Positions 55,110-64,000 of a DNA stretch of 64,000 bases are shown one piece after another (position 1 is the stretch's first letter; every line of letters starts with the position of its first letter). Both the position numbers and the translations under genes were made by a program. The DNA is from Escallonia rubra (Eukaryota; Streptophyta; Magnoliopsida; Escalloniales; Escalloniaceae). The DNA lies in the NCBI GenBank assembly GCA_033065855.1, contig JAVXUO010002567.1:1-64000 (forward strand). Reading direction: 5' to 3'. Under the pieces are notes generated by a model that was not told where the DNA came from, ran no database searches, and saw only the letters and a list, made by a program, of their open reading frames with translations.

Positions 55110-55174
55110 GACTGATGTTTCCGTTAGGCAGTCCGCTAGATAGTATAGCGGACAGTCTAAACAACAACAAAAAA
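55110..55174. repeat. Single hairpin-satellite unit left of the Harbinger insertion
   Basis: Contains TGATGTTTCCGTTAGGCAGT then CCGCTAGATAGTATAGCGGACAGTCTAAACAA, a good copy of the satellite unit whose array resumes at 61338. The Harbinger element cut the array here, leaving at least one unit on the left. Confidence 0.9.
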
Positions 55175-55199
55175 TTAGGTCCCGTACGTTTAGAGTATT

Positions 55200-56081
55200 T
55201 GTTTTCCGTTTTTTGTTTTTTGTTTTTGTTTTCTATATTCTTGTATTCAGTTCCAAAATTTGATCGTGTACTTTTATCAATTTTTTCAGTTTTTCGTTTT
55301 TACTTTTTTCACTTAATCTTGTACGTTTACCATTTTCATTTTCATTTTCAGTCACTTTCTTGAATCCATTCTTGTATGTTTAGCATTTCCTACACTATTT
55401 GTACCCATATTTTCCCATTTTAACCCTACTTTTAACCTACCAAATTATTTTTATACCCTTTACATCTTCTCACTAACTCCTCCATGGATGTTATATGTAA
55501 CAAAGGACATCATTTATATGTAACAAAGGACAAGATTATTGTGAAGTATAGTGCCTTTAAACAGCAATTACCTGTTTCTTAGTGGCAGTTTCTTGATGAA
55601 AATGATGCAATTTTCTTCTTTACCTTGCATTTTCCTTTGAATCACTACAGTTGCTATCTGTCCTATAAAAGGGTTTCTACCGTGGTCAGTCATTTACCAC
55701 ATGCGCTGCTTTCAATTTCCTGCTTATAGCCTCCTTTAGTCTATTGGCGAGGTCCTTGGCGCTGTTTTTGTTCATTGTGCTACTGGATGAAAGCATTTTG
55801 GAGAGTTAGGGTCTTTATGCTTTGGGACTGAGTGTCATACATGCATGTCTCACTGAGTACGCACTCGGATTTAGGAACGATAATAATTCTGGAGTAAAGG
55901 AAAAGCCCACGAATAAAAAAATGAAAACACATACAGGCTAAAAACACAGTTCACATTCAACTTTGGCGCTATCAAGCATTGTCATAGTACATCCGTTAAT
56001 ATTCATAATAAAGCATACCAAATTTAAATCATAACACATACTAGCCATAGCTCTATGACAATCAATACCCAATAATCACGT
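55200..56081. other. Non-coding left end of the Harbinger element
   Basis: T-rich start followed by unique-looking sequence; on the minus strand it is the 3' end and 3' UTR side of the transposase gene. No further gene seen. Confidence 0.5.
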
Positions 56082-57494
56082 TCAATGGCGGCGATTAGTA
56101 GCAGCCATATGATCCCTCCATATATGATCAGCCAACCCATCCCTGAAGTTGGCCATGCGGTTACACGCTGCTTGCGACAAGTCGGGAGCTGCAAAAACAG
56201 TTGCCTCATCCCCAAGTACGCGAGTCCCTTCTGCCATGTACTCGTTGAAAATAGGGTCGTCTGGCGTATTCAGGCGGATGAAGTTATGCAAAACAAAACA
56301 AGCGTTGACGATACTGTTTTGCCTGATCAGGTTGTAGTTTGACATTAACTTTAAAATTGAAAACCTGGCCTTTAGAGCTCCGAAGCATCGTTCAATAACA
56401 TTACGCAAAGATGCGTGTCTGTAGTTAAACATTTCCCTAGGTCCTCTCGGTGCATTCCTTGCTCCCTCAAAGTCGTGAAGGTGGTAGCGCTCGCCACGAA
56501 ATGGGGCTAAATAACCATCCACATTACTGTATCCACTATCGACGACGTAATATTTATCTGCAAATCAAATTTCGTGAAGGTCATCACATTGTATTTTGAC
56601 GCATAAGTAATGAGAATATAATCATAATGTGGTAATCTCATTTTCTTACTCGGAGGGGGTCGAGGGAATTCAACCTCCGCTGATGTGATGACCTCGGCAT
56701 GAACTCTTGAATCATTCGCACTTCCCTCCCATCCCACATTGACAAATGTGAACATCATGTTAAAGTTACATGCAGCCATCACGTTTTGGGATATATTCCC
56801 TTTTCTTGAACGAGATGCATTCATCTTCGACTTGGGGACAACGGCCGCCACAATTGTACCGTCAATCGCACCAATGCAATCCTGTAGAAACATTGCCAGA
56901 TTAAATCACGTTAGTAAGCGGTCCAACATTAATCTGAATTACAAAAACCATAGCCATAACTGAAGGTTATACCTTGAAGTACGGGTAGTACTTCGAACTG
57001 TTTCGTATGTGTGGATCGACTCCGTCAGTAACCTGCGGCTTTATGATTAACATTCCAAGATAACCCAAAGCCCGAGCAACACGCTTAATGGTTCGTCGTA
57101 TGGTATCAAGGGAGCGTTGAAACCGTTCACACAGTTGACGCATTCGTTCTGTATGACTAACACAATTCAAGAAAATGCCCAAAGCCTCTTCAACACCGAC
57201 GTGAGAGTGTGCGTCATCAATAAGCCATCCGTTATTCCTAAGAGTCGCTGCCAACGTTCTAAACGCATCTGGATACATCCTCATTACATTATACATTCTA
57301 GACGGATGACCATTTAATAATTCTTGCACATGATCACTCCCAGAGAGTACAGATGTATACATAGGCCTTGGGACCCTATCTAATGCTGCACATCTCCGTT
57401 CTATTTCCTCTAACATGTAAATGTCATGAAGGTCATCATCTGACGATGACGTGTCACCATTATCCCATGTAGCATTGGCTTGCGAAGATGACAT
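56082..57494 (-). CDS. PIF/Harbinger DDE transposase (DDE_4 family)
   Basis: Catalyses cut-and-paste transposition of the surrounding element. Three exons, 57494-56973, 56881-56650 and 56557-56082 (introns 91 and 92 bp, GT-AG), give 1230 nt in one frame and 409 aa without stops. The N-terminal part has the helix-turn-helix-like region of the family (VGVEEALGIFLNCVSH, RFQRSLDTIRRTIKRV). The catalytic residues are all visible: first Asp in CIGAIDGT (Asp181), second Asp in YYVVDSGY (Asp258), Glu in RNVIERCFGALK (Glu307). LAPFRGERYHL and ACFVLHNFIR are also family signatures. Length is typical. It works with the Myb/SANT-like protein encoded just upstream on the same strand. Confidence 0.94.
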
Positions 57495-57792
57495 TGCAGT
57501 ATAATAACTATGAGAATGGTAACTTCAATAACCTGTTACTAAATGAACAATATATTTGTCAAGCATCTTGTTTACACATACAGGCATCCTAAAATACAAC
57601 AGAACATTGCATAAATTTCAAAGAGTCAATATATGGTACAAACCATAATCTATCACACCGATGGTTTCAAAATTGCCACTGATACACAACAGTGGACTTG
57701 CCCAACACAAATGTTCAGGTAGTAAAAGTAGCAGAAACTCACACATAGCATGACTTGAGAAAAACACAGTTCATCGTTACCAAACACAGATA

Positions 57793-58787
57793 CTAGGGAA
57801 CCAAAGATGCCAACCACTGCAAACGGCGAAAATCAGGCATTTCAATGAATATGATGCGGTTATCCCTCTCTTTAAAACATTGCACTGCAGCCATGTATTG
57901 CTCACCAGGAATGTCCGTAATTTGATTGAGCTCCTGCATGCACCTCGCCATGTTGTACACATCATCGACCGAGTCTTCTTGGAATCTGGAGTTGCCCTCT
58001 CGATGATATTTCTGTGCTCTGGCCTTGGAGCACTCCGTCCAAGCATCAAGTGCAATGTCCATTTTCACCGACTTGGACTCCTTGCTAGAACGCGCGGTAT
58101 TAGGGGTACCCTCTGACCTACGTTTCGTCCCCACATCCGTAACAGGAATATCATCATCAAGGTCAATAGTAGCACCCCTCCTACTAGAACCTCCGACATA
58201 CGCATGGTATTGCTCATCCTCCTCAGCACTATTCAAAGGTCGCTGTGTTGATGAACGTGCCAATTTACCGGTTGCCGTGGACTCCGAGAAAATCAATGCC
58301 AGATTGTCGTAATTTGCACACCCTTTCCCTCGGAACTGCCTAGCCCCTTTGTTTGCCTACATAAAATTTGGTTATACGGTATAGTTACTATGGTTATAAG
58401 GTATAGTTAAGATGAGTGTAGTACCATTAAATAGTTATCCCAAACGTCGTCCAAAGCAGTGCATGTTTGGGTTGCGTGATCCCATCCAAAACCGGTGTGA
58501 TTCCGTAACTTGGTAAACTCGCGATACTTCGCACGCAGCCTATTGTACTTTGACGTTAACTGTGACCGTTTGAACATAGTGCCGACCCTCGCAAACATGT
58601 CATTCGCAAGCTCACCCCACTGTTTCGAGTTAAATGTGGAAGACTGATGGGGACGTTTCTGTTTCAGCTCCGCCATTAAATTGACAAATAATGTTTCTAC
58701 ACGCGGAGGCCACAAAGCCGCATCGAGTTTTTCGTCATCTGTAAGTCCATCTCGAAGACCAGAAATGTCCACAAACGAATCGGCCAT
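57793..58787 (-). CDS. Harbinger ORF1, Myb/SANT-like DNA-binding protein
   Basis: Partner protein that in PIF/Harbinger systems helps bind the transposon ends and bring the transposase to the nucleus. Two exons, 58787-58425 and 58356-57793 (69-bp GT-AG intron), encode 308 aa. The Myb_DNA-bind_3 trihelix-like domain spans about residues 24-135 (ALWPPRVETLFVNLMAELKQ, FNSKQWGELANDMFARVG, LTSKYNRLRAKYREFTKL, GFGWDHATQTCTALDDVWDN, then ANKGARQFRGKG after the splice). The middle has a basic patch with KRRSEG; the C-terminal part is helical (VYNMARCMQELNQI, AVQCFKERDNRIIFI). No breaks were seen. It lies head-to-tail upstream of the transposase, the usual arrangement. Confidence 0.9.
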
Positions 58788-59125
58788 CTACAATTATGCA
58801 CGTAAACATATTTACACGTCTCATTTGTCCGGTCTCATGTCATGTAGCTACTTTACATCATGCAATAGTATATGATAACGTCACATTGTATTTAATTGCT
58901 CTAATTGAACGATAGTGTGTCGGCTTCAACAGAAACACGGGCTATACAGACGTGCATGTCTAATGTAAATATGTAAGATAACAGTATACAGTACGCAATG
59001 ATTAATGAAGATACTCAACATGTCTGCAGCATACAAGAGTCTAATAACAATCTTCACAATAAGTGTTCAAAACACATTGAAGCATATAACATTACAGTAC
59101 ATGTCTCATTAACAACAAATGACAG

Positions 59126-59485
59126 CTAAAAGGATGCGGGTTCACTTCTTGGGCCACTATTGGCCCTCATCCATGCCATCGGAGGCATTGGGGGGAAGGG
59201 TGCTAGAGACTCGTTGTGCAATTGTGTTTCGATTGGTCCACCAAATCCTTGCGAATGAATTGCTAGGTCTGCCATGGGAGGCACTGCCGGAAGGGGTTGT
59301 TCAGGAGGTTCAACATGTCTTTCCCAACGAGATTTGTAAAGTACATAAGCAGTACTGGCTTCACTACGTTTACGGTATTTTTTAAAAACGCAGTTACGAA
59401 ATCCCGACACTTGCAGTTGACATTCTTCCCATGTGTCGTAAATGCCGGGCACTCGACCGACAAATACAACGTACCAGCTTGGCAT
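59126..59485 (-). CDS. Small ORF with RNase H1 N-terminal (viroplasmin-like) domain inside the Harbinger element
   Basis: A 119-aa open frame beginning MPSWYVVFVGRVPGIYDTW and continuing EECQLQVSGFRNCVFKKYRK. This is the pattern of the RNase H1 N-terminal hybrid-binding fold (consensus-like YVVF.GR.PGIY.SWEEC..QV.GF...YKKF). The rest (residues about 62-119) is Pro/Ala/Met-rich with no catalytic RNase H domain. It stands on the same strand as, and upstream of, the Harbinger Myb-like gene, between it and the 5' terminal repeat, so it appears to be a third gene of the element. The domain binds RNA:DNA hybrids or dsRNA in RNase H1; its role here is unknown. Whether it is spliced to further exons upstream could not be settled. 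Confidence 0.65.
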   Translation of the reverse strand: MPSWYVVFVGRVPGIYDTWEECQLQVSGFRNCVFKKYRKRSEASTAYVLYKSRWERHVEPPEQPLPAVPPMADLAIHSQGFGGPIETQLHNESLAPFPPMPPMAWMRANSGPRSEPASF

Positions 59486-59574
59486 TTAATATCCCTATCA
59501 TAAAAAAGGACATATACGACATGAGATTCATTAGATTTTAATGTTATGATCAAACCGTAATGCATGGATGTTGC

Positions 59575-59780
59575 CTAATCTTAGATCCAGAGAGCGGAGA
59601 GAATTAAAACAAATTTTGTTAGCATTACCTAGACCTGATAATCCAAGATCAAATCAGATCATATGGACTCAACATCCCAGTGGCAGCTTTACCACTAACA
59701 TAGCATGGGAAGCAATAAGAACCAAAGCACCTGAGAGCCCTTGGTGGAAATTACTCAACTATCAAGTTCTGAACAACAAT
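59575..59780 (+). mobile_element. LINE fragment (zf-RVT-proximal region)
   Basis: A plus-strand frame reads WTQHPSGSFTTNIAWEAIR and PWWKLLN, like the segment between reverse transcriptase and the C-terminal zinc-knuckle of plant L1 LINEs (W...G.F....AW..IR....WWK.LW). The fragment is too short to place further and has no visible poly-A tail. It lies inside the Harbinger element. Confidence 0.6.
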
Positions 59781-59849
59781 GGCTCAACTGATGGGCGCAT
59801 GAGGCACTATATAAATACCATGACAGCTAAACTAGTCCTAGCCCTCTAG

Positions 59850-61277
59850 TGAAAATTTAACTCCAAACCATTACAAGAAAGCTATCATCTTATAGGCTGA
59901 GAGCTGAATGCCATTTTAGGGTTGCATGTGACTAGTGAAGAAAATATAGCAAGTGACTAGTGAAGAAAATATAGCGCAAGAAGATTGTAGGAACTCCCAC
60001 AACCTCAGAAGTCACAACAAACTGATTTTGGACTCTGCTTTGGGCATGTTCTTTTCCATATCAGTAAATGTTGGAACAAATAACTCCACCAAAACAGCAT
60101 TGAGACACAGACAATATCGTTCTTCAGAAACAGTCCTATTTCCTGCAAGCACTTGAAAGAGATGTGCAAGTACCACGCTACTGTAGCATCAGAAAAGTGT
60201 TCGAGTAGTAGTTCTGCATCTAATTTTACCCTGAATGTATCGACCAATTGATCCTTTAGATAATAACACTATAACTAGTCCTCAAAGAAACTCAGCTAAT
60301 TTTTCAAATGCAGAAGCACTTTATAAAATTCCGCGTAAGACAAAGTTAGCATTTGAAGCTTTCGCAGCAATTTACATTATCAAATTCTCTTCCGTGCCAT
60401 TCATGGGTCTGAATCTGAGGTTTTTCACATTTGAGCTTTGATTATTCTTTATTTCAAGAAAGAATTTTAGAAGCAGTCATCGTGCCACCCAGAAATGGAA
60501 ACCCACCACCGTCGGTGAGTGGCCCACCCCACGAAGACAACCCACGACCACCCACAACCACACCGGCGCACCCAAGGCCGCCAACCGCACCAAGTGCCAC
60601 CCAGAAATGGAAACGGAGGGTACCATCTTCAATCAATCAACCCACAAACAAAACTCAAAGAGAAAACAGAAACAGCAAGGAGAATAACAGATCGATCGAC
60701 AGAAGAATAAAGTGAGAAATTGGGGAAAACCTTTGACAACTGTATTGGCGATAGGACGTCGTTCTCTCCGGTCACGGATCGTTCGGTGCTTGTTAGGGAG
60801 ATGATAGGTACTCGGCAGGAGGAAAGATGCTCCGTTTTGACAGATCTGCTGGATGGAAGGGAAATACGTTGACGAACTGGAGATGGCGTCTCCGTCTTCT
60901 CTGTGACGTGTCTCCGGCAGCTAAGGGGAGACTCGACCGCAGCTTCAATTTCTTCGGCAGCTTGAGCTTGAGAAATGGAGTGAGAGAGAGTTGTTGGGGA
61001 TCTGCTCATTGAAAATGGAGATGTGCAATGAATCAGGCAGAGAGGGACGGGGAGAGAGGACAGCTTCACGTGACTAGGCTAGGCTTCGTAGAGCTTGTAA
61101 GAGAGAACAGTGAACAGTGCAACCATGCCTTGTTTCTTCAGAGTATTCTCTGACAATAGTTGCGGCGTTTTGGAAAAAGGTGAAAACACCTCAAAGGTGT
61201 TTTCACGTTTTCAGCACTGTTCATTGTTTTTGGATCCGATACAAATACAAAAAATGGTAAAAGTACACGAAATATTC
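59850..61277. other. Non-coding 5' part of the Harbinger element
   Basis: No gene accepted. TGCCACCCAGAAATGGAAAC is repeated directly at 60483 and 60594, either side of a Pro-rich-coding CCACC stretch. Around 60700-61080 there is GC-rich leader-like sequence (minus strand), a plausible promoter and leader region for the element's genes. A minus-strand open frame there (60629-61069) shows no family motif. Confidence 0.5.
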
Positions 61278-61306
61278 CCGTTTTTTGTAATCATTACAAA
61301 AAACGG
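61278..61306. repeat. Perfect 14-bp hairpin next to the right terminal repeat of Harbinger
   Basis: CCGTTTTTTGTAAT, one base, then its exact complement. It overlaps the inner edge of the right terminal repeat and has no equally perfect counterpart at the left end. Confidence 0.85.
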
Positions 61307-61337
61307 AAAACAAATACTCTAAACGTACGGGGCCTAA

Positions 61338-62590
61338 GTGTTGAAGCCAAATGTTTCTGTTGAGTGTTGAATACTGATGTTTCCGTTAGGCCGTCCGTTA
61401 GATAGTATAGCGGACTGTCTAAACAACAAAAAAAACTAAGTGTTGAAGACTGATATTTGTGTTACGTGGTCTGCTAAATAGTGTAGCCGGCATTCTATAA
61501 ATAACCAAAAAAAAATTAAGTGTTGAAGTCTGATGTAGCTGTTAGACCGTCCGCTAGATAGTATAGCGGACAGTCTAAACAACCAAAAAAACTCTAAGTG
61601 TTGAAGACTGATGTTTCCGTTAGGCCGTCCGCTAGATAGTATAGTGGACAGTCTAAACAACCAAAAAATGTAAGTGTTGAAGACTGATGTTTCTGTTACG
61701 TGGTCCGCTAGATAGTGTAGCGGACATTCTATAAACTACCAAAAGAAAAAAAACTAAGTGTTGAAGTCTGATGTAGCTATTAGACCGTCCGCTAAATAGT
61801 GTAACAGACAGTCTAAACAAAAAAAAACTAAGTGTTGAGAACTGATGTTTCTGTTAGGTAGTCCGCTAGATAATATAACGGACAGTCTAAACAAAAAAAA
61901 ATTTAAGTGTTAAGGACTGATGTTTCTGTTAGGCCGTCCGCTGGATAGTATAGCGGATAGTCTAAACAACCAAAAAAACTAAGTGTTGAGGACTGATGTT
62001 TCTGTTACGTGGTTTGCTAGATAGTGTAGCGAACATTCTATAGACAACAAAAAAAACTAAGTGTTGAAGTCTGAAGTATATGTTAGACCGTCCGCTAGAT
62101 AGTATAGCGGACATTCTAAACAATCAAAAAACTAAGTGTTGAGGACTGATGTTATTGTTAGGCCGTCCGCTATATAGTATAGCGGACAGTCTAAACAACC
62201 AAAAAAACTAAGTGTTGAGGACTGATGTTTCTGTTAGGTCGTCCGCTAGATAGTATAGCGGACAGTCTAAACAACCAAAAGAACTAAGTGTTAAGGACTG
62301 ATGTTTCTATTATGTGGTCTGATAGATAGTGTAGCGAGCAGTCTATAAACAACCAAAAAAATACTAAAAAAATTCTAAGTGTTGAAGCCTAATGTTTCGA
62401 CTGCACCGTCTGCTATACTATGTAGCGGATGGCCTAAAACTTAGAAATAATTCTAGTGTTGAACTCTAATGTTAGGTGCCCTAAACCACCAAAAACATTC
62501 TAAGTGTTGAAGTCTAATGTTTCTGTTGCGCCGTCCGCTATATAGTGTAGCGGATGCGTCCATTAGACTATGTAGCGGACGGAAGAAAAA
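61338..62590. repeat. Hairpin satellite, about 76-bp unit, about 15 copies
   Basis: Units of 73-85 bp read CTAAGTGTTGAAGACTGATG, then TTTCCGTTAGGCCGTCCGCT, AGATAGTATAGCGGACAGTC and TAAACAACCAAAAAA. Each carries the inverted repeat GTCCGCTA/TAGCGGAC with a 7-nt loop. Cores lie near 61391, 61469, 61547, 61624, 61701, 61786, 61859, 61934, 62011, 62087, 62163, 62239, 62316, 62406 and 62530. Three sub-types can be told apart: A (TAGGCCGTCC...CAGTCTAAAC), B (ACGTGGTCC...CATTCTATAAAC) and C (GTTAGACCGTCC), in the order A B C A B C A A B C A A B, a higher-order pattern. Confidence 0.93.
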
Positions 62591-62662: not shown

Positions 62663-64000
62663 CTAAAGGTCCACTGCATCTTCTTCTTCCTCATCTTCGG
62701 CATCATCTTCTTCCTTGTCTTGCAAACCCCCTGGACTTATCCCCAATGCCTTGTAATGGTTCCGCTTGTCATGATTGGTCATTTTGTTGCACAGTGCACA
62801 CCTTCTCAGCTTTTTAGGTTGAGTTGCTTGTTCAATAGTTCTCTTCATCCGCGTAAATTTCTTGCAGCCTTTCGTTTGCGATATAATTGGATCCAAAGGT
62901 CGGATATCATTGTCCTCTTCCTCAACCGGGTCATCATCTTCTGATCCCTGTGTAGGCTCAGTGTCAACCCCATTGCTGACTGAAGCTACTTCAAATTGGT
63001 CGATGATGAGCTCTTGCTGATGAGCTATCTCGAGGAAATGTTTATACCCGGTCATTGTAGCAGCACCCTTTACGGGATAAACGGATAAACATTGTCACCA
63101 GATGATTATACCGCAACGTCTCTGATTCTTCAAAGTTAGTATACGGATGCTCCGGAAAGGCAATGGTACCGGGCAACCTGTTTGCAACCTTCGCCCACCA
63201 CAGCAGGACGTATTTATCGGGGATTGCCTTGATATTCTTCTGGGTGAAAAAGCGCAGAATGTGTCTACACAGGATGCCATGGAACTCAAACTTCTTGCAA
63301 ACACATGTCACCGAATCCGGTAATGTGTCATGGCTCGCCGTATACATTCTATGTAGCTTCTCAGGGACGAGGTCATTCATCAGTGAATAAACCTTGAACT
63401 CACGTTTAGACTTTGCTGCCACCGTGTTTATAATGTATCGTCCTGATTTTTGCAGCTCCATTTGGTATTGCATGAATATCTCCTTCGTATAGACTTTTGC
63501 ACCGTTCAGCTCCAACGAGGTCTCAAGCAACATTCTCCTTTGTTTGTACGTGCTTGCAAAGTCTGCATTCCTTTCTTTCACGAATAACGAGGCAACCGCT
63601 TTTTTGGCGGACGTGGCGAAACTCTTCAAATTGGTAGTTGTACCTACATAACTATCGAACCAGGCATTCATAAACTCACTCCTGCCCGTTGTTTTCATGC
63701 CCGCAGAAAAATATTGTTTTCGTGTAAATGTCAATCCATTACTCTTTGAGCTCATACAAGTGTTGGAGCCACTCGTGGTCTTGCAATGAGTAATCCTCAA
63801 CAAGTTTTTCCCACCTCTCCTTAAAATCCTTAATCGTTAACGACTTGTTAACGCACTTGTCAAAATCATGTTTAAAGTCTGGATACGTTGCATACATGTG
63901 ATGCAGACGTTCAGGGTATTTGTTTCTTATGTGCCAAGTGCACAAGTTGTGTCAAGTATCTGGGAAGATGTTAGCAATAACCTTCTTCATTGCCAAATCT
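62663..64000 (-). pseudogene. FAR1/FHY3-type MULE transposase, decayed and cut by the window edge
   Basis: Mutator-family transposase of the outer element; the N-terminal part lies beyond 64000. Visible on the minus strand: the end of the MULE catalytic domain (MCTWHIRNKYPERLHHMY, then FKERWEKLVEDYSL, about 63945-63739), the region FSAGMKTTGRSEFMNAWFDS, and the SWIM zinc finger CVCKKFEFHGILCRHILRFF (about 63300-63240; Cys-x-Cys and Cys-x-His). The C-terminal tail has an acidic stretch and CALCNKMTNHDKRNH, a second Cys/His cluster. Breaks seen: a TAA after YELKE (63739) with a nearby one-base shift, and a frame change near 63055. It is oriented against the PMD and protease genes, with the hairpin satellite between. 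Confidence 0.85.

Follow-up and report, generated by a model that had tools for sequence, protein, structure and literature searches.

A probable third gene with a nuclease-free RNase H1-type domain in a PIF/Harbinger transposon lineage of Escallonia rubra

Plants carry many PIF/Harbinger elements, along with the MITEs that these mobilise, and the elements are described as transposons with two genes. In a window of 64,000 nucleotides from Escallonia rubra (contig JAVXUO010002567.1; the whole stretch of DNA analysed here), one such element holds a third small ORF. Is this ORF a gene of the element, and what could its product do? An earlier note, made from the sequence alone, had described it as uninterrupted, on the same strand as its partner genes, and inside the terminal repeats of a complete element. 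We find all of these parts, as listed below.

55178..61334, minus strand: complete PIF/Harbinger element, 6,157 bp (inverted repeats, C3183 copy, terminal 24-mer)
61335-61337, no strand: other flank, TAA (sequence)
61296..61334, minus strand: 5' terminal inverted repeat in transcription sense, 39 nt (inverted-repeat search, copies)
60731..60816, minus strand: putative untranslated leader exon, 3' part (alignment of 20 copies; predicted splice sites)
59486..59494, minus strand: putative exon start of the third gene (predicted from the alignment)
59126..59485, minus strand: third gene, 119-aa ORF, ATG to TAG (ORF list, Pfam, copy alignment, codon tests)
Residues 4-44 of the third ORF, minus strand: RNase H1 N-terminal (Cauli_VI) domain (Pfam PF01693)
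58425..58787, minus strand: Myb/SANT ORF1 exon 1 (PF12776, alignment)
57793..58356, minus strand: Myb ORF1 exon 2, predicted GT-AG intron (alignment)
56973..57494, minus strand: transposase exon 1 (ORF list, genome matches)
56650..56881, minus strand: transposase exon 2, predicted intron limits (DDE_Tnp_4, E 3.6e-6)
56082..56557, minus strand: transposase exon 3 (DDE_Tnp_4, E 5.4e-10)
55178..55216, plus strand: 3' terminal inverted repeat, 39 nt (inverted-repeat search, copies)
55175..55177, no strand: flanking TTA, target site (sequence)

Transcription of the element runs from high to low coordinate in the order leader, third ORF, Myb/SANT, transposase, all on one strand, with a gap of 338 nt between the third ORF and the Myb ORF. 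The inverted-repeat arms as detected (55170-55216 and 61296-61342) are 47 nt long and 94% complementary, with 39 nt per side inside the element. Since its flanks read TTA and TAA, the target duplication of the window copy is not exact. Among the nine copies with both ends found, the 3-bp flanks are identical in seven (six TWA, one GAA) and unequal in two, the window copy being one of these. The hallmarks of a PIF/Harbinger element are present: identical TWA flanks in six of the nine measurable copies, a Myb/SANT second ORF (58787-58407, minus strand; PF12776, E 3.9e-19 in the Pfam scan), and a Harbinger-type transposase, with DDE_Tnp_4 in two exon ORFs. Plant_tran is also among the matches of the Pfam scan. 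Transposase exon 2 presumably holds the first two catalytic Asp residues and exon 3 the catalytic Glu. Known two-gene elements (PIF, Ping/Pong, Harbinger) share the DDE transposase, the Myb/SANT ORF, the terminal inverted repeats, and the TWA duplications; the difference is the extra hybrid-binding-domain gene that lies here between the leader and the Myb gene.

What does the third ORF encode? The earlier note had recognised an RNase H1 N-terminal (viroplasmin-like) domain, and a profile search of the 119-aa product bears this out: PF01693 is matched with 62.4 bits (E=4.8e-17), against a curated cut-off of 21 bits. The domain occupies the first ~45 residues and is followed by a Pro-rich linker and a conserved C-terminal motif, PFPPMPPMAWMRANSGPRSEPASF. 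In the PDB, sequence matches at E 0.1 or better comprise three distinct sequences, all of them RNase H1 (yeast 1QHK, 2.5e-7; human 3BSU, 9.3e-5; 6VRD, 0.0024). The predicted structure, of modest confidence (mean pLDDT 62.5; 62-82 across residues 1-50), follows the order E-E-H-E-H. Its top six Foldseek matches, headed by 3BSU, all fall on hybrid-binding domains of RNase H1; five are to chains of 3BSU, a structure with RNA/DNA, at probability 1.00 and TM to target 0.71-0.76, with E 0.01-0.07 and none below 0.001.

The residues expected to touch the hybrid are retained. Y5, W19, K35, and K36 of the third ORF align with Y, W, K, and K of 3BSU, and they are conserved in 25, 26, 26, and 26 of 27 copies, broken copies included. 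We take W19, K35, and K36 to be W43, K59, and K60 of human RNase H1, in which Y29 is presumably also a hybrid contact. W43A, K59A, and K60A are substitutions in the “non-binding” (WKKD) mutant of RNase H1 (PMC6868509). In line with the earlier claim, no nuclease was found: the Pfam scan gives no RNase H catalytic domain in the nine ORFs scanned, taken from the element and its flank, and the 53 RNase_H places found in the 566-Mb genome include none on the window's contig. The same nine ORFs contain no pararetrovirus gene (reverse transcriptase, movement, coat) such as an endogenous caulimovirus would carry beside the domain. We reject an RNase H1 pseudogene, since the catalytic part is absent and the third ORF has its own tail.

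ORF length alone is weak evidence. In 300 simulated elements (first-order Markov versions of the element), 62 contain an ATG ORF of at least 119 amino acids in some frame, so it is the match to the profile, the copies, and the test for selection that bear the weight of the case. These three, the last through constraint in the true frame, lead us to reject a chance ORF.

We are interested in whether the third ORF belongs to the element or merely sits in it. The 566-Mb genome has at least 59 matches to the third ORF, at least 58 to PF01693, at least 90 to the Myb exon, and at least 150 to transposase exon 1. Merging ORF and PF01693 matches gives 62 Cauli_VI places among the matches listed. A Myb match lies within 8 kb of 33 of them, Myb and transposase of 32, and neither of 29, as counted on a subset of the Myb and transposase matches among those listed. 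Fifty transposase places were typed that have no Cauli_VI match within 8 kb; 22 have a Myb match, and one of these 22, C582, retains the third-ORF tail. Harbingers with two genes are therefore common here, and those with three make up a single lineage. In that lineage a full-length 6,157-bp three-gene copy, C3183, is separated from the window copy by 11 substitutions; its two flanks both read TTA, from which we conclude that a three-gene element moved recently. Allowing at most 2 mismatches, the element's terminal 24-mer matches the genome 91 times, against none in the reversed control. Five terminal-repeat pairs 313-314 bp apart (C848, C1375, C1378, C2227, C2890) are likely MITEs of the element's family; other pairs are 1.1-1.3 kb apart.

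The third ORF is fully intact, with the same start, the same TAG stop, and the 119-aa frame, in 16 of the 27 copies examined. Two more (both C2930) are open with a different C-terminus, and nine are broken; in the automatic tally one C2930 copy counts as broken, since its tail fails to align. All six coding segments are open in half (8/16) of the closest copies, and C1514 and C1993 each have a single broken segment among the six, namely the third ORF. Absence of the ORF from all related Harbinger copies, with its presence elsewhere in an unrelated inserted element, had been named as an outcome that would count against the gene. This is not the case: across the carrier copies retrieved the ORF occupies the same position upstream of Myb, for which reason we reject a later insertion of an unrelated element. 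Pairwise divergence of the third ORF follows that of transposase exons 1 and 3 (Mantel r=0.94, 17 copies; 0 of 2000 permutations as high), and on the strength of this co-divergence we reject recurrent independent capture. We have little doubt that the third ORF is a real gene of the element.

Some copies depart from this regular picture. The two loci L012 (C1331) and L019 (C1514) resemble the window copy (98-100%) in the 5' region and just upstream of the third ORF, and another subgroup in their coding exons. These apparent mosaics suggest recombination between copies. The two C2930 loci (L031, L033) keep the Cauli_VI domain with a common different C-terminus, at 156 and 158 amino acids in total, and have no Myb or transposase match nearby. 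Searches elsewhere gave 14 pattern-matching stretches for the third ORF in viral contigs and 16 for the transposase in genome contigs, none of which was confirmed.

Is the gene under selection? Codon models were run with branch lengths fixed in proportion to the concatenated tree. A single omega is 0.87-0.94 for the third ORF, and 1 is not rejected (2dlnL 0.2); the same model does reject neutrality for exon 1 of Myb and for exons 1 and 3 of the transposase (2dlnL 10.3, 7.1, and 8.5). On internal branches, omega is 0.48 for the third ORF (2dlnL 11.7) and 0.27 for its domain (2dlnL 14.7). The corresponding values are 0.60 for exon 1 of Myb and, for transposase exons 1-3 in turn, 0.41, 0.07, and 0.54; neither the third-ORF tail (0.78) nor Myb exon 2 (0.92) reaches significance. 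On terminal branches the third ORF has an omega of about 1.65. The constraint is confined to the true frame: in the two wrong frames, internal omega is 1.60 and 1.04 over the ORF, and 1.59 and 1.64 over the domain. Removing the two mosaics and copy L025r changes little (ORF 0.47, 2dlnL 12.0; domain 0.24, 2dlnL 16.5). Without five partial copies, known only around the third ORF, 2dlnL falls to 4.6 for the ORF and 2.1 for the domain. The contrast of internal and terminal branches is noisy, as one wrong frame of noncoding spacer reaches 2dlnL 7.1 in the opposite direction (omega 2.65). Pairwise A-versus-C omegas (0.39 ORF, 0.23 domain) are not read against 1, because three noncoding-spacer frames also give 0.61-0.76. 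Dead copies dilute selection, which makes the one-omega model and pairwise counts inadequate on their own.

These findings suggest that the internal branches are under purifying selection and that the gene may have travelled with the element for long, kept by selection. Neutral decay across copies, which the earlier note had held up against its own proposal, does not seem to apply throughout, judging by the internal branches for the ORF and its domain, but the one-omega model does not reject neutrality and the tail alone is not significant.

How old is the association? In two distant loci the gene has left traces. The transposase and Myb of C1503 are about 48-49% identical to ours, and its decayed Cauli ORF, about 43% identical, lies 5.5 kb from its Myb match, as against the usual 0.7 kb. 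In C582 (transposase 52%, Myb 32% identical) the tail motif remains, upstream of Myb by about 430 nt; the domain was not found there. A search of eight loci with the third-ORF tail matches 13 of 24 residues in C1503 (E 3e-6) and 16 of 24 in C582 (E 1.7e-8). Since such decayed relatives, with transposases ~50% identical, still keep the ORF or its tail, we consider the third ORF to be old.

In subfamily D (C159, C441, C1803) the conserved leader region and the Myb exon are both present with no third ORF between them; in the same eight-locus search none of the three D loci matches the tail, even at E up to 10. When a tree is built from Myb exon 1 and rooted on the distant copies, D groups at 100% with carriers C2269 and C858, some other nodes being poorly supported. 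As D is nested in the carrying clade, the third ORF was probably lost there. The three D copies examined are about 91-98% alike over aligned pieces and so seem to have multiplied without the third gene, perhaps helped in trans. D lacks the ORF and yet has several copies, which indicates that the third gene is not strictly essential. This loss and the one-omega result qualify the earlier note's interpretation, which is otherwise supported.

The splice signals suggest how the gene might be expressed. The leader block closes with a conserved ..AAG/GTT donor in all 20 copies that have the block, including 3 without the third gene; in the alignment it was not found in more divergent carriers. An acceptor, ..ATGATAG, lies 9 nt upstream of the third-ORF ATG and is kept in most copies. 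Of the 19 copies with sequence at the start of Myb, 18 have a second acceptor, ..TAG, abutting the Myb ATG (C3120 is the exception), and it is present in subfamily D sequence as well. With this conserved donor and two conserved acceptors, the third gene would be an exon inside the leader intron of the Myb gene, and one promoter could feed either the third ORF or the Myb ORF.

It is tempting to ask what such a product would do. The predicted fold and the conserved hybrid-contact residues lead us to favour an accessory role in binding hybrids or dsRNA. Our main reading, to which we give a probability of about 0.6, is that the third ORF is a genuine gene of an old PIF/Harbinger lineage, whose nuclease-free product would bind hybrids or dsRNA and shield element RNA from silencing. 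Its ligands would be element-derived RNA:DNA hybrids or dsRNA, e.g., R-loops of nascent transcripts and sense-antisense duplexes. Once bound, these would be kept from host RNase H and small-RNA silencing, and element expression and copy number would rise. The third gene would thus serve outside the core cut-and-paste reaction. Judged from sequence, binding to an RNA:DNA hybrid or dsRNA is quite probable; that shielding from silencing is the main role may be put at somewhat under even odds. That the gene was kept for hybrid binding, as the earlier note proposed, would fit the conservation of the contact residues. We hold more tentatively the fullest form of this idea, in which the transposon lineage's own nuclease-free hybrid-binder coats R-loops and duplex RNA, evades small-RNA silencing, is produced from an alternative exon in the Myb leader intron, and amounts to a counter-defence on the domain of caulimovirus P6.

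Two proteins offer parallels. Caulimovirus P6 (viroplasmin/TAV) has the Cauli_VI domain without RNase H, likewise in a mobile or viral entity of plants, whereas the product here has only 119 amino acids, lies inside a DNA transposon, and is accompanied by no pararetrovirus gene in the nine ORFs scanned. In CaMV P6, residues 80-110 lie outside the Cauli_VI domain. The silencing-suppression region named in the available text on P6 is residues 80-110 (PMC5670102). ANKLE2 also has a Cauli_VI-like domain without RNase H, reported to matter for interaction with PP2A; it is an animal host protein, in contrast to a transposon gene (PMC13179284, as excerpted). With the P6 function named for residues 80-110 and the ANKLE2 domain tied to a protein partner, we treat both parallels only as leads.

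A different role, which we consider unlikely, is that of a transposition cofactor: the product would act at the transcribed ends, or with Myb or transposase at R-loops, and aid excision or target choice. The third gene does adjoin the transposase and co-diverge with it, and internal branches show about as much constraint on its domain as on the transposase exons. However, subfamily D persists without the third gene, and in rice Ping/Pong, ORF1 and transposase suffice for transposition.

We think it improbable that the product is a translation or RNA-handling factor that, as the 5'-most ORF of the array, translates or stabilises the multi-gene transcript in the manner of P6. To our knowledge no TAV activity has been described for an isolated Cauli_VI domain, and the conserved acceptors before both ORFs suggest separate spliced messages. 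Speaking for such a factor are the order leader, third ORF, Myb, transposase on one strand, with 338 nt between the first two ORFs, and the mini-TAV translation domain and dsRNA-binding region of P6 (PMC5670102, partial text).

The acceptor abutting the Myb ATG, together with in-phase GT codons read in the third ORF, would also allow the Cauli_VI part to serve as an alternative first exon, spliced in frame to give a hybrid-binding Myb fusion. A fusion would not need the tail, but most copies run to the same TAG with the conserved C-terminal motif, and this motif survives upstream of Myb in C582, where the domain was not found; we therefore give the fusion little credence. A neutral, drifting passenger, captured as a host or viral gene fragment, could draw on the near-neutral one-omega result, the tolerated loss in subfamily D, and the other Cauli_VI genes of the genome as possible donors, but it is already disfavoured by the internal-branch constraint in the true frame only, the co-divergence with transposase, and the presence in very divergent relatives.

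Returning to an accessory hybrid- or dsRNA-binding gene, the novel part is the third gene in an otherwise known kind of PIF/Harbinger element, and that gene is well supported. As far as their available text goes, a 2015 superfamily survey reports two ORFs in most autonomous candidates (PMC4482050) and a fish survey of Harbinger two ORFs throughout (PMC9179366). We found no Harbinger with a Cauli_VI gene in the PMC literature searched. The passages retrieved describe no third Harbinger gene; one “third ORF” in them is that of a retrotransposon. If a third, selectively kept hybrid-binding-domain gene is confirmed, the PIF/Harbinger superfamily also acquires accessory functions. Such a gene would offer a way of testing whether DNA transposons influence R-loops or small-RNA silencing, and its natural loss in one subfamily is a built-in comparison.

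Among known systems, the ISL2EU group of the PHIS superfamily is also a DDE element with a non-transposase accessory gene. There it is the second ORF, with a YqaJ exonuclease domain (PMC4482050, in part), whereas here the extra gene is the third and has no nuclease. The Helitron gene capE of Pleurotus is a Cauli_VI gene within a transposon as well, described in the accessible part of the source as a captured gene of a fungal Helitron (PMC4289320), in contrast to a conserved gene of a Harbinger lineage. The hybrid-binding domain of eukaryotic RNase H1 shares the Pfam family, the predicted fold, and the hybrid-contact residues; what differs here is the lack of a catalytic RNase H domain, the short Pro-rich linker, and the C-terminal motif of its own.

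The E. rubra genome has a further set of genes with this domain, combined with a GRF zinc finger (C1068, C161, C2551, C2976, C881). In these a Cauli_VI exon is followed by a GRF-like exon, and no Myb or transposase match lies within 8 kb. Identity to the third ORF is 47% over 47 residues for C1068 and 52% over 42 residues for C2976. The GRF match in C1068 is weak (E 0.005, below the Pfam cut-off), and GRF in the other four was read by eye. These multi-exon genes are repeated (L034 in C1068, L035 in C161, L036 in C2551, L037/L044 in C2976, L038 in C881); over the ~600 bp compared, C1068, C161, and C2551 are 94-99% alike, and C2976 and C881 88%.

Two observations concern the surroundings of the element. 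Direct-repeat families on both sides form a ~78-bp repeat array around it (window 61352-62560, further units seen by eye), and the empty site of the element would fall inside this array. Beyond it, at 63042-63803 on the minus strand, an ORF with a SWIM zinc finger (PF04434, E 9.2e-6) is probably part of a MULE-type transposase that runs past the end of the window.
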